Below are positions 1 through 35,766 of a DNA stretch of 64,000 nucleotides, piece by piece. The DNA lies in contig PXRI01000012.1 of NCBI GenBank assembly GCA_003021005.1, positions 1 to 64,000 on the forward strand, read 5' to 3'. Each line of letters starts with the position of its first letter. Position 1 is the stretch's first letter. Origin of the DNA: Halobacteriales archaeon QS_1_69_70 (GTDB lineage: Archaea > Halobacteriota > Halobacteria > Halobacteriales > Haloarculaceae). Position numbers and translations under genes: made by a program. The notes beneath the pieces are model-generated. The model searched no databases. It was not told where the DNA came from and worked only from the letters and a program-made list of their open reading frames with translations.

Positions 1-2094
1 AACAAGCCGTACGCGTTCGTCGTCATCTTCCGGTCGGAGAAGGAAAACGAGCTGAAGTACTACCTCGTCGAACCGGCGCTCAACGGGGTCGAGGAGGACT
101 TGCTCGAGTTCCTCGCCGAGAAGCTCGCCGACGCCATCAAGTACTCCCGCGAGGCCGGTCGGAAGAACGACACGGCCGCCGACCGGGCCGAGGTCATCGC
201 CGGCGAGACGAAGCGGCTCCTGGGCCGGTACAACCTCGTCGGCGACGACGTCGCCGTGGACCTCGGCCTCGAGGCCGGCAGCCGCCTCTCGACCATCACC
301 GACTCGCTGTCGTCGATATTCGCCGAGTCGGAGGCCGACGACGGCGACGTCGACAGCGGGGCCGCCGGGAGCATCTATCCCCCGGAGGAGACCGTCGGCG
401 CACCGGCCGGGGTCGCCGCCCGCCCGCGGTCGGCCGTCGTCGAGGAGGGCTACGACGACCTCACCGAGTACCAGGTCGAGAAGCTCCTGTACTACCTCCG
501 GCGGGACTTCGTCGGCTACGAGCGTATCGACGGCATCAAACACGACGTCAACGTCGAGGACATCTCCTGTGACGGCTACGACGCCCCGGTGTTCGTCTAC
601 CACACCGAGTACGAACAGACCATCACCAACCTCGTGTACGACCCGGAGAGCCTCGACGACTTCGTCGTGAAGCTCGCCCAGCGGTCCGGGAAGGGAATCT
701 CGAAGCGCCAGCCCCAGGTCGACGCGACGCTACCCGACGGCTCCCGGGCACAGCTCACCCTCGGCACCGCCGTCTCCGACCACGGGACGAACTACACGAT
801 CCGGCAGTTCAAGGACGTGCCCTTCACGCCGGTCGACCTGATCAACTGGCACACGTTCTCACTGGAGGAGATGGCCTTCCTGTGGCTCTGCATCGAGAAC
901 CACAAGTCGCTGATATTCGCCGGGGGCACCGCCTCCGGGAAGACGACGTCGCTGAACGCGATCTCGCTTTTCATCCCGTCGAAGGCGAAGATCGTCTCCA
1001 TCGAGGACACACGCGAAGTCGAGCTCCCCCAGCGCAACTGGATCGCGAGCGTCACCCGGCCCTCCTTTGCGGCCGACGACACCGGCGACGTCGACGAGTT
1101 CGACCTGCTGGAGGCCGCCCTCCGGCAGCGCCCCGAGTATATCGTGATGGGCGAGGTCCGGGGCGAGGAGGGCCGGACGCTGTTCCAGGTCATGTCCACC
1201 GGCCACACGACCTACACCACCTTTCACGCGGACTCCGTCGGCGAGGTCGTAAAGCGGTTCACCACCGACCCGATCAACGTCTCGAAGACGCTCTTTACCG
1301 CCCTGGACCTGGTGTCCATCCAGGCCCAGACCCGCGTCCGTGGCCGGAAGGTCCGCCGGAACCAGGCGCTGACCGAGATCAACAGCTACGACGCCGAGAA
1401 CGACGAGATCAACGTCCAGGACGTCTACACCTGGAAGGCCGGCGCCGACGAGTTCACCAGACAGCCCGGCCCCCAGATCTTAGAGGAGATCATGTTCGAC
1501 CGCGGGTGGTCCCGCCGCCGCCTCGAGGACGAACTGCACAAGCGGGAGGTCATCCTCGCGTACCTCATCGACCGCCGCATCTCCGCCTACGAGAAGGTGG
1601 CAGCGACGATCCAGGCGTTCATCAACGACCCCGACACCATCCTCGCGCTGGTCGCCCGGGACCGCCTCGAGGAGAGCCTCGACGACCTCCGGGAGATGGA
1701 GACCGTGTTCATGGACATCGACGACGAGACGGAGGCGCTCGTCCCGCGGCCGTCCCCGGACGAGGGGACACGGACCCGGGCGGCCGGCATCCTCGACGAG
1801 CACGCCGAGATGCTGGACAGCTACCGCCAGGTCGACACCGACGGGGTCGAGGAGGCGCTGCCGACCGACCTCGACTGGAACGTCGAGAGCGGCGGCGACG
1901 TGGGCGGGTCGCTCCCGACGTCGGTCGAGGTCGACCGGTCGCTCGACGCCGGCCTCGAGTCGCCCACCGAGGAGCCACCCGAGGAACGGCCCACCCGCAC
2001 CGAAGTGCGGGCGGAGGACATCTCCTTCGCGGGCGCCGCCGACGACGACGAGGGCGACGGCGGGGTTCGGACCACGCGATACGACGAGGAGTGA
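1..2094 (+). CDS. Type II/IV secretion (pilus) ATPase, PilB/TadA-like, 5' partial
   Basis: Cytoplasmic hexameric ATPase that would power assembly of type IV pilus-like filaments or secretion with the membrane protein encoded next to it. The reading frame is open to the first base of the window, so the N terminus lies outside. Visible motifs are a Walker A (GGTASGKTTS, near 915-945), an Asp-box region (VSIEDTREVELP), a Walker B-like RPEYIVMGEVRGEEG and a His box (STGHTTYTTFHAD), all typical of the GspE/VirB11 superfamily. The long acidic C-terminal tail after about 1700 is common in haloarchaeal members. The stop is one base from the next start, so the two genes are probably co-transcribed. 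Which pilus or secretion system it serves cannot be told from this fragment. Confidence 0.9.
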   Translation, partial: NKPYAFVVIFRSEKENELKYYLVEPALNGVEEDLLEFLAEKLADAIKYSREAGRKNDTAADRAEVIAGETKRLLGRYNLVGDDVAVDLGLEAGSRLSTITDSLSSIFAESEADDGDVDSGAAGSIYPPEETVGAPAGVAARPRSAVVEEGYDDLTEYQVEKLLYYLRRDFVGYERIDGIKHDVNVEDISCDGYDAPVFVYHTEYEQTITNLVYDPESLDDFVVKLAQRSGKGISKRQPQVDATLPDGSRAQLTLGTAVSDHGTNYTIRQFKDVPFTPVDLINWHTFSLEEMAFLWLCIENHKSLIFAGGTASGKTTSLNAISLFIPSKAKIVSIEDTREVELPQRNWIASVTRPSFAADDTGDVDEFDLLEAALRQRPEYIVMGEVRGEEGRTLFQVMSTGHTTYTTFHADSVGEVVKRFTTDPINVSKTLFTALDLVSIQAQTRVRGRKVRRNQALTEINSYDAENDEINVQDVYTWKAGADEFTRQPGPQILEEIMFDRGWSRRRLEDELHKREVILAYLIDRRISAYEKVAATIQAFINDPDTILALVARDRLEESLDDLREMETVFMDIDDETEALVPRPSPDEGTRTRAAGILDEHAEMLDSYRQVDTDGVEEALPTDLDWNVESGGDVGGSLPTSVEVDRSLDAGLESPTEEPPEERPTRTEVRAEDISFAGAADDDEGDGGVRTTRYDEE

Positions 2095-2095
2095 C

Positions 2096-4032
2096 ATGGC
2101 GACAGGCACCCCACGCGGCGGCATCTCGGGGGCACGACGCACCGACAGCGTCCTCGACACCCTCGCCGGCCTCTGTTACCCCATCTACGCCCGGTACTTC
2201 GACGAGGACGGCGACCTCGTCAAGCGGGTCAACCGGAAACTCGACGAGGCCCTCCGGGACTCGACCGTCGAGATGTACCTCTCGCGGGCCATCGTCGTCG
2301 GCGTCATCGCCGCCATCACCTTCGCCGTCGCCGGCTGGCTCGCGGCCTGGGCCGTCGCCGAGTTCGTCCTCACCGAAACGCCCATCCTGTTCGGCCTGAG
2401 TCTGTCGGAACCGTGGCTCACGATCGTCAACACTGTCAAGACGCCGGCGATCGTGGTGGTCTCCGGACTCGTCCTGGGTGGCATCGGGTTCGCGGTCGGC
2501 TTCTGGGCGCCGATCACGTTCCTCTACCTGGAGGCCGGCGAGCGCGGCCGCGAGATCGACATCCTCCTCCCGGACGCCGTCGCGTACATGTACGCGCTAT
2601 CGGTCGGCGGGATGAACCAGCTGGAGATCATGGAGGCCGTCGCCGAGAGCGAGGAGGTCTACGGCGAGGTCTCCCGGGAGTTCCAGGCTGTCCTCCAGGA
2701 GACCCGCTACTTCGACACCGACTACCGGACGGCCATCCGCCACCGCGCCCTCGAGACCCCCTCCGACCAGCTGTCGGGCTTCATGACCGACATGCTGTCG
2801 ATCCTCAACTCCGGCGGCGACATGACCCAGTTCCTCGACGGCAAGACCGACCTCATGATGCGGGACGCCAAGAAGATCCAGGAGGGCAACCTCGAGACCC
2901 TGGAACTGTTCGGCGAGATGTACCTCACGATCTCGATGCTGCCGCTGCTTCTCATCATCCTGCTCGTCACCATGGCGATGTTGGGCGAGGCCAGCGACCT
3001 GCTCCTGTATCTCACCGTCTATGCGCTCATCCCCGGTATCGGCGTCGCCTTCCTCGTGCTCGTGTCCATCGTCAAGCAGGACGAACCCGGCGGCGGCACC
3101 CTCTCGACGGACACCGAGGGCGTCGAGGGCCTCACCAGCGGTGACTCCGTGCTCGACCGCAGCGTGACGAAGGCGTTCGCCGAGCGGGACACCGCCGACG
3201 TGTTCGAGGACATCCACCGCCGAGAAACGTGGCACCGGATCGGGTACCTCCTCCGGAATCCCCACGAGCTGTTCATCGAGGAACCGCTCTACAGCCTCGC
3301 GGTGACGGTCCCGGTCGCCCTTGCCGTCGTCGTCGCCACCGTCACCGCGGGCCTCGCGCCGACGTCCTGGAGCGGCCTCACCGAGATGCCCGTCTGGGGC
3401 ACCTTCGTCTATGCCTACCTCCCGCTGTACATCGTCCTGTTGCCCCTCGGCGCGTTCGACCACCTGAACCGGCGGCGCCGGTTCGTCATCCTCGAGGACC
3501 TCTCGGAGGCACTCCGGAAGCTCTCGAGTGCGAACGACACCGGATTGAACTTACTGGAGAGCTTCCGGAACGTCGCCGAGACGTCCACCGGCAAGCTCGC
3601 CCGCGAGTTCGAACGCATCCACACCACCGTCAACTACGGCGGCGATCTCAAGCGGGCGCTCATCGCGTTCAACAACCGGTACGAGGTCCCCCGGATGGCC
3701 CGCACCGTCAACCTCATCGCCGAGGCCCAGGAGGCCTCCTCGGAGTCCTGACGCTTCTGGGGGTCATGGCGCTGTTGAAAGTCCAGTTCCTCGACGTCAT
3801 CGGCAACCTGGCCGAGGAGACCGGCCAGTCGGGGGGCGGCCGCCAGGGTGCCAGCTCCGTCACGGACATCAACGTCGACCGGCTCTCGATGCTGTTTCTC
3901 CACGCCGTGATGCTGCAGGCCATTTCCGCCGGATTCATCGCCGGCTACCTCCGCGAGGCCCGCATTCTCGCCGGCATCAAGTTCGTCGTGGTGCTCGCCA
4001 CCGTCTCGCTCGTCGTCTGGATCCCGCTCTGA
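2096..4032 (+). pseudogene. Type II secretion F-domain membrane protein (PilC/TadC-like), frameshifted
   Basis: Polytopic membrane platform protein partnering the upstream ATPase. The first frame gives 551 residues with two T2SSF-type helical cytoplasmic domains and several membrane segments, then stops at 3749-3751 just after NLIAEAQEASSE. The family C terminus (LTLLGVMALLKVQFLDVIGN through FVVVLATVSLVVWIPL) follows at once in another frame, ending at 4032. In relatives that I recall, roughly 35-40 residues lie between these two blocks, so about 110 bases appear missing at about 3748. Both sides are otherwise well preserved, suggesting a very recent deletion or a sequence/assembly gap rather than an old pseudogene. 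If genuine, the product would lack its last membrane segments. Confidence 0.85.
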
Positions 4033-4075
4033 CGCCGAACGCTTTTTACCCAGCCTCCCGTGGCCCGTATCCAGG

Positions 4076-4477
4076 ATGGCAACCGTCCTCGTCGTCGACG
4101 ACGAACCGGACATCGCCGAGTCCTACGGGCAGTGGCTGCGGGACGACCACGACGTCCGCGTGACCACGAGCGGCGAGGATGCCCTCGAGGCACTCGACGA
4201 TGCCGTCGACGTGGTTCTCCTGGACCGGCGGATGCCGGGGTTGAGCGGCGCGGAGGTTCTAGAGGAGATCGCCGACCGGGACGTCGACCCCGGCGTGGTT
4301 CTCGTCACGGCCGTCGACCCCGGCTTCGAGATCGTCGAACTCGACTTCGACAACTACCTCCCCAAGCCCGTCACCCCCGACGACATCGTCGAGGCCGTCG
4401 AGGAGCTGACCAGCACGGGCGGCTACGAGACGCCCGGCGGGGAGTCCGACTGGCCGCCCGACGAAGGTCTGCGGTGA
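4076..4477 (+). CDS. Stand-alone response regulator receiver protein
   Basis: A 133-residue CheY-like receiver. Acidic pocket D8/D9, phosphoacceptor D50 in VVLLDRRMPGLSG, the conserved Thr in VLVTAV and the lysine of YLPKPVT are all present, so it should accept phosphate from a histidine kinase. Haloarchaeal relatives often carry a C-terminal HalX helical domain; here the protein ends in a short Gly/Pro/Asp-rich tail, so it is either receiver-only or has lost that domain. No kinase gene is nearby. A T-rich box (gctttttacc, 4041-4050) lies about 30 bases before the ATG and is the likely TATA element of a near-leaderless transcript. Confidence 0.85.
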   Translation: MATVLVVDDEPDIAESYGQWLRDDHDVRVTTSGEDALEALDDAVDVVLLDRRMPGLSGAEVLEEIADRDVDPGVVLVTAVDPGFEIVELDFDNYLPKPVTPDDIVEAVEELTSTGGYETPGGESDWPPDEGLR

Positions 4478-4555
4478 CCCCGTCGGCCGGGGAGATCTCA
4501 CCCGGCGCCGTCGCGTCCCGACACACGTAAAGCACTCGACCGCGAGGGTCCGACA

Positions 4556-5996
4556 ATGAACGACGGCGGCGAGGTCGGCTCCGTCCGGGTCGTCGGGACG
4601 GCCCACGTCTCCGAGGCGAGCGTCCGGGAGGTCGAGGACGTCATCGAGGCCGACCAGCCCGACGTCGTCGCCGTCGAACTCGACGAGGGCCGGTTCCGAC
4701 AGCTCAAAGGCGAGACGCCGGAGGAGTTAGACGCCGGCGACCTCCTGCGCGGCAACACCGTCTTCCAGTTCCTCGCCTACTGGATGCTGTCGTACGTCCA
4801 GGCCCGACTGGGCGACCGGTTCGACATCGAACCGGGCGCCGACATGAAGGCCGCCGTCGACACGGCCGAGGACAACGCCATCGACGTCGCACTGGTCGAC
4901 CGCGACATCCAGGTGACCATCCAGCGGTTCTGGGCCCGCCTTTCCACCCTCGAGAAGCTCCAGCTCGTCGCCGGCCTCGCCGTCGGCCTCGGGGACCCTC
5001 GCGAGGTCGGCCTGGGCTTCGGGCTCGGGATATCCCTCATGCTCGCCGTCGTCGCGACCGCCGTCGCGGGCCCGTTCGTCGTCCCCGCCGGCGCCGTCCC
5101 CGGCATCCTCGTCGCCATCCTGGACACCCTCCTCGTCGCCGCCGGCCTCGGGGTCGTGCTCGGACTCTTGCTGTCGGTCGCGCTCGCCCGCGCCGCCCCC
5201 GACGACGACGTCGAGGAGTTCGACGTCGACCGCCTGACCGACACCGACGTGGTCGGCGCCATGATGGAGGAGTTCCGGCGGTTTTCCCCCGGCGGGACGG
5301 GGCCACAACGTCGTCGCCGTCGTCGGCGCCGGCCACCGGGACGGGATCGAAGCCCACCTCGAGCGCCCGGAGACCCTCCCGTCGATGTCGGACCTCACCG
5401 GTCGGACCTCGGGTCGCCGGGTGTCGCTGTACCGGCTGTTCGGCTATCTCTTCACGCTCGGTTTTTTCGTGTTCTTCGTCTTGCTTGCCATCGCGACCTA
5501 CACCGGCGTCGAGGGCACCTCGAGCCGGCTCCTGTTCGAGCTGTTCGCCGCCTGGTTCCTCGTCAACGGCGTCGTCGCGTTCGTGCTCGCGAAACTGGCC
5601 GGCGCCCACTGGTCGTCGGCCGGCGTCGGCGGCGGCGTCGCCTGGCTCACCAGCGTCAACCCCCTGCTGGCGCCCGGCTGGTTCGCCGGCTACGTCGAAC
5701 TCCGATACCTCGACGTCAACGTCGGCGACGTCTCCACGCTGAACGAGATCGTCTCCGAGGAGGAGGCGCCGCTCCGGGACCTCTGGAACGACCTGCGGGC
5801 GGTCCCACTGTTCAGACTCATCATGATCGTCGCGCTCACGAACGTCGGCAGCTTCATCGGCAGCGTCCTGTTCGCGACCGTCCTCCTCCCGTACCTGTTC
5901 GCCGGCTCCGGCGTCGAGGGCGCAACCGGCGTCGCCCGTCTCATGCTTGCGGGTGCCGAAAACAGCATCGACCTCATCCTGGAGGCGGTCCGGTGA
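4556..5996 (+). pseudogene. TraB/PrgY family membrane protein, frameshifted
   Basis: TraB/PrgY-family protein (related to bacterial pheromone-shutdown proteins; role in archaea unknown). The N-terminal domain shows the hallmark GTAHVSEAS and AVELDEGRFRQL motifs, followed by hydrophobic segments. After EEFRRFSPGG (near 5290) the frame is lost. The family continuation (GHNVVAVVGAGHRDGIEAHL, then hydrophobic C-terminal helices) resumes immediately in another frame and ends at 5996. From family knowledge about 20 residues belong in the gap, so roughly 60 bases seem missing. The downstream protease gene overlaps its stop codon, so the two are translationally linked. The otherwise intact sequence argues for a fresh deletion or an assembly defect. 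Confidence 0.85.
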
Positions 5997-6634
5997 GTGC
6001 CAAAAGTCTCGACGGCATCCGGTTTTACCCCAACGAGCTGCGCGACCTCGCCATCGCCTGGGTCGCACTCGGGGTCGCCTTCGCCGTCTTCATCCTCGAC
6101 CCGCCCGTCTCGCCGGCGCTTCTGACCGACCTCACCTCCCCGGCATTCGTCCGGGTCCTGTTCGTCAGCATGCTCACCGTCGGCGTCGGGTTCCTCCTCC
6201 ACGAACTCGCCCACAAGGTCGTCGCCGTCCGGTTCGGACAGGTCGCCGCCTTTCGGGCCGACTACGGGATGCTCGCACTGTGTGTCGGCGCCGCCTTCGC
6301 CAACTTCCTCTTTGCGGCCCCGGGCGCCGTCTACCACCGCGGCCGGATCACCGAACGGCAGAACGGGCTCGTCGCGATCGCGGGCCCGCTCACGAACGTC
6401 GCGCTCGCGGCCGTCTTCGCCCCCCTGTTATTCCTCGAGGGGCTCCCAGGGAGCGTCGGCGCCTTCGGCGTCTTCATCAACCTCGTCCTCGCCGCCTTCA
6501 ACATGATCCCGTTCGGGCCCCTGGACGGCCGGAAGGTCAAGGACTGGCATCTCGGCGTGTTCGGAGCGACCTTCCTCGGGACGGTCGCGCTCGCGGCTGC
6601 GGCGTTGCTCTTCGTCGGGTTCCCGACCGTCTGA
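5993..6634 (+). CDS. Site-2-type zinc metalloprotease (M50 family)
   Basis: Membrane-embedded metalloprotease of the S2P/M50 class, about 213 residues. With a GTG start at 5993 overlapping the TraB stop, the zinc-binding HELAH motif is at residues 70-74 inside a membrane helix, and the third ligand region is the C-terminal NMIPFGPLDGRKV. Four to six hydrophobic segments are evident. Haloarchaeal homologues of this compact form have no PDZ domain, and none is seen here. Substrates are unknown; anti-sigma-like or membrane-anchored regulators are usual targets of the superfamily. The 219-base gap downstream holds no convincing gene. Confidence 0.85.
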   Translation: MSAKSLDGIRFYPNELRDLAIAWVALGVAFAVFILDPPVSPALLTDLTSPAFVRVLFVSMLTVGVGFLLHELAHKVVAVRFGQVAAFRADYGMLALCVGAAFANFLFAAPGAVYHRGRITERQNGLVAIAGPLTNVALAAVFAPLLFLEGLPGSVGAFGVFINLVLAAFNMIPFGPLDGRKVKDWHLGVFGATFLGTVALAAAALLFVGFPTV

Positions 6635-6853
6635 CGTCGCGTGGGGGCGTCACTGCGCTCGCCCGGGGGCACTATTCAGAATAGGATGTCGTTTGTCAGA
6701 TAGCTCGACTCACCGGGCTCAGGGCCCTTGTCGGCGCTCGGAGAACCATATCGGGCGGGACTCCGCCGATGTATTCCTCCACGTTTACCTGAACAGTGAT
6801 GCCGCTGGAACCGACGCGTTTTTGCTCCGGTCGGCCGGCGGGTGAGACGAGAC

Positions 6854-7831
6854 ATGACCGGGGATGGCGACGACGGGCTCACGTACGCCGAGGCAGGGGT
6901 CGACATCGACGCCAGCGAGGCGGCGACGGCGGCGCTCGTCGGTGCCGTCGGCGAGGTCGAGGGGGATTACGCCGGGCTGGTCGACCTCGGGGACCGGTAC
7001 CTGGCGCTTGCGACCGACGGCGTCGGGACGAAGCTCCTGGTCGCCGAGGCGCTCGAGGAGTACTCCACGATCGGCATCGACTGCGTCGCGATGAACGCGA
7101 ACGACCTCATCGCGGCCGGGGTCACGCCAATTGCCTTCGTCGACTACCTCGCCGTCGAGACGCCGGACGACGAGACGGCCGAGGCGGTGGGCGAAGGCCT
7201 CGCAGCCGGCGCGGCACGGGCCGACGTCGCCCTCGTCGGCGGCGAGACGGCCGTGATGCCCGACGTGGTCCGGGGCCTGGACCTGGCGGGCGCTTGCGCC
7301 GGCCTCGCGACCGCCGAGGAGGTATTCGACGGGACCGCCCGGGTGGGCGACGTCCTGGTGGGACTGCCCTCATCCGGGATCCACGCCAACGGGCTGACGC
7401 TCGCCCGGGAGGCCGCGACCCGGGACCACGACTACGAGGATCCGTTCCCGTTCGACGAGGATCGGACCATCGGGGAAGTGCTGTTGGAGCCGACACGCAT
7501 CTACCGGGACGCGCTCGAGCCCCTGTCGTCCGTCGAGACGCACGCGGCCGCCCACGTCACCGGCGGTGGGTGGACGAACCTACGCCGGATGGGCGATCAC
7601 CGGTACGTGGTCGAGGAGCCCTTCGAGCCACAGCCGGTGTTCGCGTTCGTCCGGGAGGCGGGTGAGGTGAGCGCCGCTGAGATGCACCGGACCTTCAACA
7701 TGGGGACCGGCTTCGTCGCCGCCCTCCCGGAGGCCGACGCCGCGAGCGTCCTCGAGGAGCTTCAGGACGCCCGCGTCATCGGGCGCGTCGCCCAGGGCGA
7801 GGCGGTCGCGATCCGGGACCTGGAACTGTAA
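6854..7831 (+). CDS. purM: Phosphoribosylformylglycinamidine cyclo-ligase (AIR synthetase)
   Basis: Fifth step of de novo purine synthesis: ATP-dependent closure of FGAM to aminoimidazole ribotide. The 325-residue product has the family signatures YAEAGVDID at the N terminus, ATDGVGTKL, MNANDLIAAGVTPIAFVDYL, VGGETAVMP, GLPSSGIHANGLTLAR and the C-terminal HVTGGGWTNL with FNMGTGF. No gap is seen. The ATG at 6854 is preferred over an in-frame start 12 bases upstream because it begins directly at the conserved region; a T-rich box sits at 6818-6825. It is not next to other pur genes in this window. Confidence 0.95.
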   Translation: MTGDGDDGLTYAEAGVDIDASEAATAALVGAVGEVEGDYAGLVDLGDRYLALATDGVGTKLLVAEALEEYSTIGIDCVAMNANDLIAAGVTPIAFVDYLAVETPDDETAEAVGEGLAAGAARADVALVGGETAVMPDVVRGLDLAGACAGLATAEEVFDGTARVGDVLVGLPSSGIHANGLTLAREAATRDHDYEDPFPFDEDRTIGEVLLEPTRIYRDALEPLSSVETHAAAHVTGGGWTNLRRMGDHRYVVEEPFEPQPVFAFVREAGEVSAAEMHRTFNMGTGFVAALPEADAASVLEELQDARVIGRVAQGEAVAIRDLEL

Positions 7832-32697: not shown

Positions 32698-33307
32698 ATC
32701 CGCCGTGGGCGGCCGGCGCGGAAAGCCACTCCGGTTCGTCCACGCAACGATTCGACAGCGATCGACCCTCGAGGCCTGCAACTACCCCGATCATCTTCCA
32801 CTCACCGCTCCGTGACCGACGGTCGGACGGAATCTTGCGAGGGAAGACGCCCCAAGAGAGGCGGTCTTCCGCATGGGTTCGCGGCGTGGACCGCCGTTCG
32901 CCGTCATCGAGACGGCTCGCTGGTTCGCGGCTCTGCCATTCATCCAGCCCGAGGCGCTCCAGCTGGTCGCGCCTCGTGGCTCGTGTGTCGTCCATCGCGC
33001 CGCCCAGTCCTTCCGCTCGCTCATCCGGCGGCGCTCCAGCCGGTCGCGCCGCCCTGCTCGCGGCTTCGCCGCTCGGCCGTTCCGAGGCCTCCCTGTGGTC
33101 GGCCTTTCGGCTCGCGTGTCGTCGGTCGCTCCGCTCCCTCCTCCCGCTCGCCGTCTTCGAGGCGCCTCGCTGGTTCGCGGCTCCGCCGCTCACCCAGTCC
33201 GAGGCGCTCCCTGGCTCACGGTTCACTTCGTTCACCGTTCGCCCGTTCGGCGGCCTCCCTGCGGTCGGCCGCCTGCGTCGCGCCTCGCGCCGCTCGGCGC
33301 CTCGCTA
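32698..33307. repeat. Hairpin mosaic region A
   Basis: No supported gene. From about 32835 the sequence is a patchwork of short GC-rich modules such as ctcgcgtgtcgtcg, tccgaggcgctccctgg, ggctcacggttcacttcg, ttcaccgttcgcccgttc and cctccctgcggtcggcc. Nearly all occur again, in reverse complement, at 43.25-43.72 kb. At 32836-32874 a hairpin (gaagacgcc with ggcggtcttc) opens the array. Open frames in it encode repetitive Arg/Ser/Ala peptides in several frames and are not genes. Confidence 0.75.
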
Positions 33308-33865
33308 TGCGAGGGGAGGGATTCGAACCGAGTCGAGACGGTCCGGGCTCCTCGCTCCGCTGCGGTGCCGGGCTGCGACTAGCCGGCTTCGAATCCCTCG
33401 AACGCACTGGGGATCCACGTGAGTTCGGAGGAGTCGCTATCGCTCCGCGTCGCTGACGACCGAGGAACACCCAGTGCGAGGGAAGGGATTCGAACCGAAG
33501 GAAGACGGTCGCCCTCGCTTCGCTCGGGCGCTGCGTCTTCCAGGCTTCGAATCCCTCGTCGCATCCCCGCTCACGAGATACTTGCGACGCGTCGGTACCG
33601 CGACGCGTCGCTCGCGTGTCGTCGCTCCCGCTGGTCACTCCTCCCGCTCGCTCATCCGGCGGCGCTCCCTGCGGTCGCGCCGCCCGGCTCGCGGATGTTC
33701 TCGGGGATGCGAGGGAAGGGATTCGAACCGGAGGAAGACAGTCGCCCTCGCTTCGCTCGGGCGCTGCCTCTTCCAGGGTTCGAATCCCGCGAACGCACTG
33801 GGGTTCCACGCGAGTTTGGACGCGTCGCTATCGCTCCGCGTCGCTCACGACCGAGGAAGTCCCAG
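33308..33865. repeat. Tandem hairpin units carrying copies of the tRNA-Leu 3' end
   Basis: The sequence tgcgagggaagggattcgaa, the complement of the last ~20 bases of tRNA-Leu, occurs at 33475, 33708 and in the tRNA itself at 33866; a one-base variant is at 33308. Each copy outside the tRNA opens an imperfect hairpin of about 80-92 bases closed by ttcgaatccc. Two hairpins (from 33308 and 33708) are followed by a ~70-base inverted repeat bounded by gcactggg and cccagtgc, with common core cgctatcgctccgcgtcgct. The repeats therefore form two composite units of about 160 bases downstream of the tRNA, where integrative elements insert. Confidence 0.8.
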
Positions 33866-33949
33866 TGCGAGGGAAGGGATTCGAACCCTCGGACCTCTAC
33901 AGGAGCGGATCTTGAGTCCGCCGCCGTTTCCAGGCTTGGCTACCCTCGC
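33866..33949 (-). tRNA. tRNA-Leu (anticodon CAA)
   Basis: Minus-strand 84-base tRNA. The acceptor stem GCGAGGG pairs with CCCTCGC before discriminator A. The D arm is TAGCCAAGCCTGGAAACGG; the anticodon loop CTCAAGA gives CAA (Leu, UUG codons); a long class II variable arm follows; the T arm is GAGGGTTCGAATCCCTT. No intron and no encoded CCA. Its 3' end is repeated three times just downstream, implying use as an integration site. Confidence 0.95.
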
Positions 33950-34201: not shown

Positions 34202-34435
34202 TCAAGAATCACCTGCTATCTCCCGCCGCACTTCGTCGACGCTCGATGTGTCCTGCTTTTCGCTTCGTCTCAGCATGGCTTCGCCCGTTTCCTCGGAGAT
34301 GATCCCGGCCACGAGTTCGGGGTCCGGTCCCGGTGCGCCCGTCAGTCGGACCAACGCCTCACCCATTGTTTCATCCACTCTTTTTTCCGTTTTCAGATAC
34401 TCGTGGAACCATTCATCTACCTTGACCGTCTTCAT
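34202..34435 (-). CDS. VapB-like antitoxin, orphan
   Basis: A 77-residue protein. The opening MKTVKVDEWFHEYLKTEKR with VDETMGEALVRLTG follows the haloarchaeal VapB pattern (a beta strand then two helices of a ribbon-helix-helix-like fold), with a charged C-terminal tail that would bind a toxin. No PIN toxin follows directly; 104 bases separate it from the next gene upstream. ATG at 34435 is chosen; the track of codons upstream is not conserved. Base composition is clearly less GC-rich than in the core genome. Confidence 0.55.
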   Translation of the reverse strand: MKTVKVDEWFHEYLKTEKRVDETMGEALVRLTGAPGPDPELVAGIISEETGEAMLRRSEKQDTSSVDEVRREIAGDS

Positions 34436-34539
34436 CGTGTATCGAGATACACGGCCCTGAGTCAAGTGGTTTGGGCCACTCTCAGTAGCTCACAACGGTT
34501 CGGTTCTGAAAACCGCAACCGCGACCGCGTGCGATTGAC

Positions 34540-34890
34540 TCATTCCTGAATCCACGGGTCGACGGTTTCAATTTTTCCGACAATATTGCGCGGAGACCGG
34601 TAAGCGTCGACAATGTCCAGAACAGCATTCGCAATCGCGTACGCTGAGGCTCGCTGGTTGTTGACCAACAGGAGTCCTTCGTGCCGGGAGTTATCCAGTG
34701 CCGCGAAATTCTTGATATCCGCGGTCACGATCATCAGTTCTTCCTGCTGTACGTAAGGGAGTATATCGTCCTCATCGTCAGCGTCCTCATCGAGTACGTA
34801 GTCAGAGTACTCGGCCGGGTAACCTTCTTTCCGTAGAAATTCAGCAATGCGCGGTTCGAGGTTTGCGTCGATGAAAAACCCCCACCGCAT
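34540..34890 (-). CDS. DUF5615 PIN-like toxin candidate
   Basis: A 116-residue protein resembling the DUF5615/Mut7-C PIN-like fold: FFIDANLEPRIAEFLRKEGY at the N terminus supplies the first acidic residue, and LMIVTADIKNFAALD holds the second acidic motif, as in putative RNases of toxin-antitoxin pairs. Its ATG directly abuts the stop of the DUF433 gene (34891), the usual antitoxin-toxin order. The lower GC and location next to tRNA-Leu suggest horizontal transfer. Ribonuclease activity is inferred from the fold only. Confidence 0.65.
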   Translation of the reverse strand: MRWGFFIDANLEPRIAEFLRKEGYPAEYSDYVLDEDADDEDDILPYVQQEELMIVTADIKNFAALDNSRHEGLLLVNNQRASAYAIANAVLDIVDAYRSPRNIVGKIETVDPWIQE

Positions 34891-35184
34891 CTATCCTTCG
34901 TCCGGGGGGGTGACGCCATCGGGTCGAGTGATACTGCCCTCTACGTCGGCCATGATTTGCTGCCGGTCGCGTCGTAGTTTCTCGAACTCTCTGGGGTGGT
35001 CGTGATAGTATAGCAGCGCAGCGTACACCTCCGAGATATCGAGGTTGTGACGGTCTGCGACGGTTTGAGGTGTGAGTCCGCTCCCTTCGACCCTCTCGAC
35101 GATGGTCAGGACTGGCACACGCCGACCGTCGATGTGTGGCTCATCCAATATGTCCTGCACGATGCGGGTCTCCTGTTGGGACAT
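34891..35184 (-). CDS. DUF433 antitoxin
   Basis: A 97-residue protein with the DUF433 core: ILDEPHIDGRRVPVLTIVER, then GLTPQTVADRHNLDISEVYAAL and YYHDHPREFEKLRR. This is a helix-turn-helix-like domain paired with DUF5615 toxins. Its stop touches the toxin start, so translation is coupled. It should both neutralise the toxin and repress the pair. ATG at 35184 fits the family start better than a start 33 bases upstream. Confidence 0.7.
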   Translation of the reverse strand: MSQQETRIVQDILDEPHIDGRRVPVLTIVERVEGSGLTPQTVADRHNLDISEVYAALLYYHDHPREFEKLRRDRQQIMADVEGSITRPDGVTPPDEG

Positions 35185-35299
35185 GTGTCCTATGTCATGA
35201 TATGCACCGACGCCCACATGAATGGAATGGTCAGTTCACGTGCAACGCTAGCGATGCTTTTGCCCGCTGTTTGAGCATCGGTGTGTCAGACTCGCCCAG

Positions 35300-35375
35300 T
35301 CCATCTTGAACTAACCTACCCATCAGTTCCCGTATAAATACCGCTGTATGGGCGACATAGCTAGTTCAAGATGGA
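35300..35375. repeat. Long imperfect palindrome at the 3' end of the second toxin gene
   Basis: Perfect 14-base arms tccatcttgaacta (35300-35313) and tagttcaagatgga (35362-35375) flank a loop with further partial pairing (cccat with atggg) and a TATA-like tataaata at about 35334. The right arm overlaps the toxin stop codon. It could terminate transcription or serve as an operator between the two toxin-antitoxin modules. Confidence 0.65.
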
Positions 35376-35609
35376 ATGGTTCTCCTGAAAGAGAGTCGGG
35401 TAGCCACGGGCGAGGAAATCCTGATCACTGGTGAGAACCAGTCGGTTCGTCTCCTCGGCGTACTGTTGTACTTCGTCGTCAGTGGCTTGAGGTTCAACGA
35501 CGTCGACGACCATCTCGGCGTCGTGGCTCCGTTTCTCCAGATAGTGCATCGCTCTGCGCTCTACGTTCTCGTCGAGAAGAAGACGATAGCTACTCTTCGT
35601 CGGCGACAT
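35361..35609 (-). CDS. DUF5615 PIN-like toxin candidate, second copy
   Basis: An 82-residue protein closer to the DUF5615 consensus than its neighbour: YRLLLDENVERRAMHYLEKR, then VVEPQATDDEVQQYAEE and RLVLTSDQDFL, giving the acidic residues of a PIN-like active site. It overlaps the end of the preceding antitoxin gene by about 20 bases. It differs strongly in sequence from the first toxin, so the two modules are not a recent duplication. The product ends in the palindrome at 35300-35375. Confidence 0.65.
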   Translation of the reverse strand: MSPTKSSYRLLLDENVERRAMHYLEKRSHDAEMVVDVVEPQATDDEVQQYAEETNRLVLTSDQDFLARGYPTLFQENHSILN

Positions 35610-35766
35610 CGACCTCATGTCGGTCCGCTACTGTCTGCGGGTCCAGACCACGCCCACCGACGCGGGCGTGGATGGTCAGCACCGTGAGGCGGCGGCCCTC
35701 GATGTGAGGTTCGTCGTGAATCTCCGAGTTTTCACCGGAGACAATCCGATACTCTGTCTTCGGCAT
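35590..35766 (-). CDS. DUF433 antitoxin, C-terminally short
   Basis: A 58-residue protein whose first 50 residues match the other DUF433 copy (IHDEPHIEGRRLTVLTIHAR, GLDPQTVADRHEVDV). It stops after VADEE, where the complete copy continues for about 40 residues with the YYHDHP helix. This is either a minimal form or a truncation caused by a deletion near 35595. If truncated, the toxin downstream may lack effective neutralisation, unless the first DUF433 protein cross-reacts. Confidence 0.6.
   Translation of the reverse strand: MPKTEYRIVSGENSEIHDEPHIEGRRLTVLTIHARVGGRGLDPQTVADRHEVDVADEE

Follow-up and report, generated by a model that had tools for sequence, protein, structure and literature searches.

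In integrons, new units join next to a fixed site and the crossover falls beside a GTT, features that the units described here appear to share. The CTX phage integrates as a single-strand hairpin with the help of the host Xer recombinases; its target is dif and the element is a phage genome. CRISPR arrays and casposons are characterised by direct repeats and polarised growth, and some casposons target a tRNA. Integron attC sites and attC clusters devoid of an integrase are known, archaeal integrons among them (PMC9668308). Elements with a tyrosine integrase are known to insert at the 3' end of tRNA genes, where the tail is repeated and the tRNA stays intact (PMC8371274). The MITEs, PATEs and small mobile repeats (SMRs) of Haloquadratum are short, non-coding, often palindromic and mobile, and PATEs and SMRs are described as inserting without target duplication (PMC3119063).

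Here we analysed a locus of a haloarchaeal genome (G000; 2.45 Mb, 44 contigs) lying in the window, that is, the whole 64,000-nt stretch of DNA under study. An earlier note had taken the repeats at this locus for minute, self-complementary elements without coding capacity, which successive integrations had piled up at the 3' end of a tRNA. The results below support that description, and they point to the units as an unrecognised kind of minimal mobile DNA. No description of such units was found in the open-access literature searched; subscription papers and preprints were outside this scope, and a description elsewhere is possible.

Three tandem units downstream of tRNA-Leu(CAA)

Three units follow tRNA-Leu(CAA) in the sense of the tRNA. 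Each has the order S-T'-H-T, in which S is a spacer, T' an inverted ~10-nt copy of the T-arm, H a hairpin core and T a copy of the last 20 nt of the tRNA, positions 54-73 (Table 1). A sequence search confirmed that the tail copies start at 33308, 33475 and 33708, and every one of them opens a hairpin closed by TTCGAATCCC, as had been noticed earlier. The GCACTGGG-ended repeat that was also reported exists, but it is the spacer S of units 1 and 3 and not a separate second element. Compared with dinucleotide shuffles, RNA folding gave z = -1.4 (33308), -5.6 (33475) and -4.8 (33708), so the hairpin at 33308 is not exceptional on its own. The GCACTGGG-ended stretches lie at about 33404-33474 (z = -0.6) and 33794-33866 (z = -2.7). 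According to Rfam, the tRNA alone reaches the gathering score in the window, and the units there match no described RNA family.

Table 1. Features of the tRNA-Leu(CAA) locus, in window coordinates
Feature	Position	Strand	Basis or remark
tRNA-Leu(CAA), single copy	about 33865..33949	-	ARAGORN + Rfam
Tail T of tRNA-Leu(CAA), positions 54-73	33866-33885	-	source of copies
Unit 1 spacer S, GCACTGGG...CCCAGTGC ends	33792..33865	-	
Unit 1 T', inverted T-arm copy	33779..33791	-	
Unit 1 core hairpin H	33728..33778	-	folding, covariance model
Unit 1 T copy, 20 nt, tRNA positions 54-73	33708..33727	-	
Unit 2 spacer S, akin to the tRNA-Leu(TAA) S, lengthened by nested dispersed repeat	33559..33707	-	
Nested GC-rich dispersed repeat copy, outside the unit family	33610..33694	.	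strand not assigned
Unit 2 T'	33546..33558	-	
Unit 2 core hairpin H	33495..33545	-	folding, covariance model
Unit 2 T copy, identical to tRNA-Leu(CAA) tail	33475..33494	-	
Unit 3 spacer S, GCACTGGG type	33401..33474	-	
Unit 3 T'	33388..33400	-	
Unit 3 core hairpin H, 97% identical to tRNA-Leu(TAA) H, same genome	33328..33387	-	
Unit 3 T copy, matches tRNA-Leu(TAA) tail, not Leu(CAA)	33308..33327	-	

The unit 2 spacer differs from the spacers of units 1 and 3 and is longer, while the related S at the tRNA-Leu(TAA) locus is without the GC-rich repeat. This repeat (~85 bp) has many copies in G000, often clustered; besides 33610-33694, the window carries it at about 32968-33151. The resemblance to the second leucine locus extends to unit 3, which has its counterpart at tRNA-Leu(TAA) in H, in T and over a further ~120 bp past T, T being the tail of that tRNA. 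The unit 2 spacer also resembles the S found there. Taken together, sequence has moved between both leucine tRNA loci.

On the 5' side of tRNA-Leu(CAA), at 34202-35618, the window contains several short minus-strand ORFs, presumably toxin-antitoxin type partners (PIN-like, DUF433-like).

A family of units linked to tRNA genes

Used as a query against G000, the array yielded a total of 139 matches, the greater part to the GC-rich repeat stretch. It also matched the tRNA-Leu(TAA) and tRNA-Lys(CTT) loci, the latter having a Lys tail and a similar core. The pattern TYGAACCGNNNNRAGACNGTC, taken from these loci, had matches in 83 of the 195 genomes of the order, and its reversed control had 0 among the matches listed. 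We aligned 42 hairpins that matched the pattern, lay near a tRNA and had a closing arm scoring 9/12 or better (alignment A1), and built from them the covariance model R1. The window hairpins score E = 1.8e-20, 1.1e-18 and 3.4e-14 with this model, all three being among its seed sequences. In G000, R1 gave 25 matches at E < 1e-9, all with a same-strand tRNA upstream; these adjoin 14 tRNA genes, namely tRNA-Leu(CAA) and 13 others, and one of them (L247) is 1.2 kb from tRNA-Trp. A chance origin of the window array is excluded because the architecture recurs at 13 other tRNAs and in other genomes.

Matches were obtained in 56 of the 57 genomes of the host's family (E <= 0.1) and in 176 of the 195 Halobacteriales genomes (E <= 1e-4). 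In a phylum sample, 51 of 294 genomes matched, 50 in Halobacteriales and one outside, the latter with a single marginal match. At E <= 1e-4 there was none in some genomes of the order that are 98-99% complete (e.g. G060, G088, G144, G190 and G010). Species of Haloarcula and Halorubrum are among those that carry units. A scan of named genomes yielded at least 119 stretches; 96 matches were dropped, chiefly bacterial, and some of those dropped were haloarchaeal, with a weak arm or on a stretch without a tRNA. Loci gathered across genomes gave 143 distinct units at 32 tRNA kinds and 18 amino acids, which bears out the expectation that hairpins opening with other tRNA 3' ends exist.

Linkage was measured in G143, G226 and G075, three complete single-contig genomes of one genus with 126 tRNAs by Rfam. 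R1 (E <= 0.1) gave 84 matches, and 75 of them lie downstream of a same-strand tRNA at a distance of up to 800 nt, where 0.6% would be expected from the space covered. The units are thus not scattered away from tRNA genes; such scatter is what the earlier note had named as contrary to its reading. At least one unit stands behind 59 of the 126 tRNA genes (G143 25/41, G226 15/43, G075 19/42); the other 67 are without one by R1. Among the nine unlinked matches, two are beside tRNA-Pro(CGG), missed by Rfam and found by ARAGORN, two were apparently moved away from tRNA-Ala and tRNA-Tyr by larger elements that integrated there, and the remaining five have low scores (at most 30.5 bits). The existence of the unit family and its linkage to tRNA genes are very secure.

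At the tRNA-Tyr site (L408, G226), a 6.8-kb stretch with a tyrosine integrase occupies about 541-7275; on the far side it ends in a simple tail copy, and it has apparently displaced an older unit. At L400 (G075), 4522-5814, a unit adjoins a tyrosine integrase ~16.7 kb from tRNA-Ala(CGC), apparently displaced by an integrated element. An adjacent integrase as the unit's own enzyme (L400, L403/L408) was rejected, as the units look older and displaced by ordinary elements. L263 in G000, at about 1440-1640 (C43:88673-88749), holds a 26.5-bit match without a tRNA, with GTTCCCGCGAGAC twice in the stretch, and is possibly a related hairpin away from tRNA genes.

Carriage of units by viruses was rejected on the IMG/VR and phage results: 46 pattern matches in IMG/VR included 0 with a closing arm of 10/12 or with a tRNA in place, and the one phage match was to an annotated tRNA-Leu. 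The one plasmid match lies beside tRNA-Gly.

Anatomy of the unit

The 143 units have median lengths of 41 nt for S and 51 nt for H, and a period of about 129. We examined 208 adjacent T pairs from 139 arrays, chosen for at least 18/20 matches to the tRNA tail; per-position identity was 0.94-1.00 within T and only 0.54 at +1, against 0.50 expected. Arrays reach four T copies beyond the tRNA. Under a looser choice (at least 14/19), which retained 47 of the 66 candidates in G143 and G075, the tRNA of the genome that fits best is their own for 45/47 T copies, and 35/47 are exact. The left border falls between positions 53 and 54: H ends GG in 137/143 units, also where the tRNA has GA or AG, as in tRNA-Thr(GGT) with A at 53. 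At the unit start, CCA follows position 73 in 0/143, and the next base is a pyrimidine in 142/143. The result speaks against a copy of mature tRNA made through RNA, for which CCA is expected after the first T. A tandem duplication of whole tRNA-Leu genes was also considered, since the 5' part of the hairpin resembles the tRNA-Leu 5' end, but the design stands behind 32 tRNA kinds.

For 227 T copies we looked for TYGAA, taken as T', in the 125 nt upstream; it was lacking at 51, present more than once at 17 and exactly once at 159. The 159 single candidates, taken with no match threshold, agree with their own tRNA at 9.92/13 positions compared to 8.72 +- 0.08 after shuffling (0/5000 shuffles). 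The excess peaks at positions 57 (0.96 vs 0.51) and 63 (0.63 vs 0.36) and is gone at 66. The agreement of T' with T suggests a role for T':T pairing. Folded in silico, 135/143 units, pre-chosen for a T' match of at least 8/13, show T' paired to the distal T; with the proximal T included in the fold, T' pairs with the proximal T in 46/143 and with the distal T in 87/143.

The H stem alone covaries (0.415 vs 0.147, 0/500 shuffles), and 94.2% of its cells are paired compared to 32-49% for slid versions; the plain number of pairs changed on both sides is reached by 60/500 shuffles. The covariation of the whole fold (0.303 vs 0.130) was obtained with units partly selected for a good T' match. Because of this, the T' and H-stem tests were repeated without T' selection, and the result stands.

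S folds better than simple shuffles (z below -1.5) in 86/140 cases and often begins with a T-rich stretch. Across genomes it follows the kind of tRNA (0.554 vs 0.476, 0/300 shuffles) and, weakly, the clade (18/300). Clustering of H was not significant by tRNA (27/300 shuffles) or by clade (236/300). The longest ATG ORF per unit has a median of 0 and a maximum of 47 aa.

Insertions between related genomes

We compared orthologous sites of G143 and G075 using 80 regions of the 83 tRNAs (one and two were left out; one G143 tRNA was added later). The 39 orthologous site pairs comprised 9 insertions, 11 with the same trailer start and 19 that were unreadable. At the nine sites, the post-tRNA sequence of one genome lies 115-355 bp farther in the other, with 35-36/36 flank bases matching. 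Insertions start exactly at the mature tRNA end, displacing older sequence (9/39 sites), and a perfect T copy precedes the displaced sequence at 7/9 of them; the copy scores 17/20 at tRNA-Pro(TGG) and 8/20 at tRNA-Gly(TCC). At tRNA-Glu(CTC) there is a match in the other direction too (219 bp, T copy 10/20), and this site is taken as rearranged because the matches run in both directions.

This test sees only differences adjoining the tRNA, and the polarity rests on a comparison of shared units. The extra units are tRNA-proximal to a shared unit (identity 0.81-1.00) at tRNA-Asn, Thr, Arg(CCG), Gly(GCC), Met, Ser(TGA) and Arg(GCG). Val(TAC) is the exception, its shared unit (0.86) being proximal and its extra units distal. 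Orthology is less sure at Met and Val because of low upstream identity (0.63 and 0.49). Copy number therefore varies between related species, a kind of variation that the earlier note had proposed to look for between strains, with extra units proximal at 7/8 sites that have a shared unit; the arrays differ between relatives and are not fixed in them.

The third genome, G226, allowed gains to be called by comparing the 60 nt after its tRNA with the genome without and the genome with the extra unit. Pro(TGG), Gly(TCC), Arg(CCG) and Gly(GCC), in this order, read as gains: G226 agrees at 44/63, 53/60, 54/60 and 57/60 with the genome without the extra unit, and at 33/69, 32/70, 40/72 and 39/67 with the genome that has it. 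Mobility of the units is well supported by these sequence comparisons; insertions at the tRNA end together with the four gains argue that they are mobile, tRNA-stacking, non-coding cassettes.

A candidate recombinase

The unit-rich genome G143 shows no more than two PF00589 matches, one being an integrase of the element type and the other a XerA-like protein of 353 aa. Among the NCBIfam models the latter fits archaeal XerA best, with 111 bits, short of the cut-off of 220. XerA-like relatives, 56-74% identical, are present in 14 of 15 other genomes, and five of these 14 are without units. In G026, which has units, the one stretch examined held no XerA-like gene. We regard the G143 protein as a candidate enzyme. 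L452 and its relatives, XerA-like tyrosine recombinases of ~350 aa, possibly represent a core recombinase of haloarchaea. A profile of all tyrosine recombinases was abandoned as an enzyme marker, as it was present with and without units and did not discriminate.

Discussion

The unit borders and the polarity fit site-specific recombination with a crossover between positions 53 and 54 (G/TTC). We think it probable, if not strongly so, that the units are cassettes inserted at this point by a recombinase acting in trans, probably as a folded single strand. The incoming cassette would supply a new tRNA tail and the old tail would be pushed outward to become T; a crossover there, with the tail supplied by the cassette, explains why the duplication stops precisely where the mature tRNA does. 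For the recombination step itself our confidence is moderate. We further hypothesize that T' and T of the folded strand would pair and so reproduce the T-arm core in double-stranded form, with H as its cap, that the recombinase would act on this folded cassette as on the tRNA gene, and that the conserved XerA-like tyrosine recombinase may be the enzyme. Units might be lost by recombination between direct T copies. The earlier note had placed the units where tRNA-targeting integrases insert; the part played by such an enzyme is what we infer. Several findings count against this account. Similar H cores occur at different tRNAs, though a foreign tail would spoil the tRNA; the XerA-like gene is present in five genomes without units and absent from the one stretch examined of G026; T' is absent upstream of 51/227 T copies and ambiguous at 17, and it pairs with the proximal T in 46/143 units when both T copies are in the fold; the polarity is reversed at Val(TAC), 19/39 pairs are unreadable, and Glu(CTC) matches both ways.

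The units could instead be a structured RNA trailer or terminator of the tRNA transcripts with a regulatory or processing role, the species differences then being losses through T-repeat recombination or slippage. Their position downstream of and sense to the tRNA, the frequent T-rich start of S, the covarying H stem and the ability of T' to pair with either T copy are all in keeping with a trailer. We consider it unlikely, however, as 67/126 tRNA genes in the three genomes are without a unit by R1 and some genomes that are 98-99% complete have none, four sites read as gains, arrays run up to four T copies beyond the tRNA, and in a trailer a copy of positions 54-73 would be superfluous.

If an integrase akin to a transposase or to Cas1 inserted the units by cutting the tRNA end with a 20-bp stagger, T would be a target-site duplication, and the fixed-length direct repeat and the insertion on one side of the array would follow. 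The borders, though, fall where the T-loop starts and where the mature tRNA ends, which is what a need to rebuild the tRNA would predict, and plain target duplication leaves unexplained an internal T' that follows the tRNA; we hold such an integrase to be quite improbable. In a fourth reading, ordinary integrative elements lost their interior by deletion, and the units are what is left of them, attL fused to attR. Larger tyrosine-integrase elements do use the same tRNA ends, and two appear to displace units (in G226 and G075), but by eye those two carry simple tail copies only and no T'-H hairpin of their own, and at the loci looked at none of the elements with an integrase had S and T'-H on its flanks; we regard this origin as very improbable.

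If insertion of cassettes by site-specific recombination is right, a major archaeal group carries a class of mobile DNA far smaller than the known integrative elements, behind about a third to three fifths of the tRNA genes in the three genomes. Site-specific recombination that relies on hairpins could then be tested in a setting other than integrons and phages. The partial tRNA copies of these genomes would have an explanation, and one would have to ask how a single cassette design can suit many different tRNAs. The array order would give relative age, a natural record of insertion.

Comparison with known systems

The consensus of the attC boxes is RYYYAAC for R'' and GTTRRRY for R'. Each box was found in 0/143 units, because every T begins TTCRA (the anchor used), which the R-box consensus excludes. 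The integron integrase TIGR02249 had a match above the cut-off in 0/10 genomes, with weaker matches below the cut-off in 8/10. Integrons have gene cassettes whereas the units have none (spacer median 41 nt), and the fixed site differs, being a tRNA gene for the units. On boxes, integrase and cassettes, the units do not belong with integrons. Like attC sites, they are imperfect hairpins with a conserved structure (the H stem covaries) in a tandem array (PMC9668308). It is a tentative and rather doubtful idea that they form a tRNA-anchored, gene-less integron-like system, in which the T':T stem of folded cassettes imitates the T-arm and a housekeeping XerA-like recombinase moves them; if true, most haloarchaeal genomes would keep a turnover of hairpins behind their tRNA genes.

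With the integrative elements that target tRNA genes the units share the tail duplicated at the far end and the intact tRNA. They differ in being ~130 bp, non-coding and furnished with an inverted tail copy and a hairpin core, one design serving at 32 tRNA kinds. Those elements carry their own integrase, unlike the units (median period 129 bp, no ORF longer than 47 aa). Insertion specific to tRNA genes is absent from the description of the Haloquadratum MITEs, PATEs and SMRs in the part of the source available, and in this the units differ from them (PMC3119063). The dispersed insertion sites of MITEs are likewise not a property of the units, 75/84 matches being tRNA-linked. CRISPR arrays and casposons resemble the unit arrays in direct repeats and polarised growth, the repeats of the units being tRNA tails. 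The closest mechanism would be that of the CTX phage, a folded strand presented to a host recombinase, from which the units differ in having a tRNA and not dif as the target.
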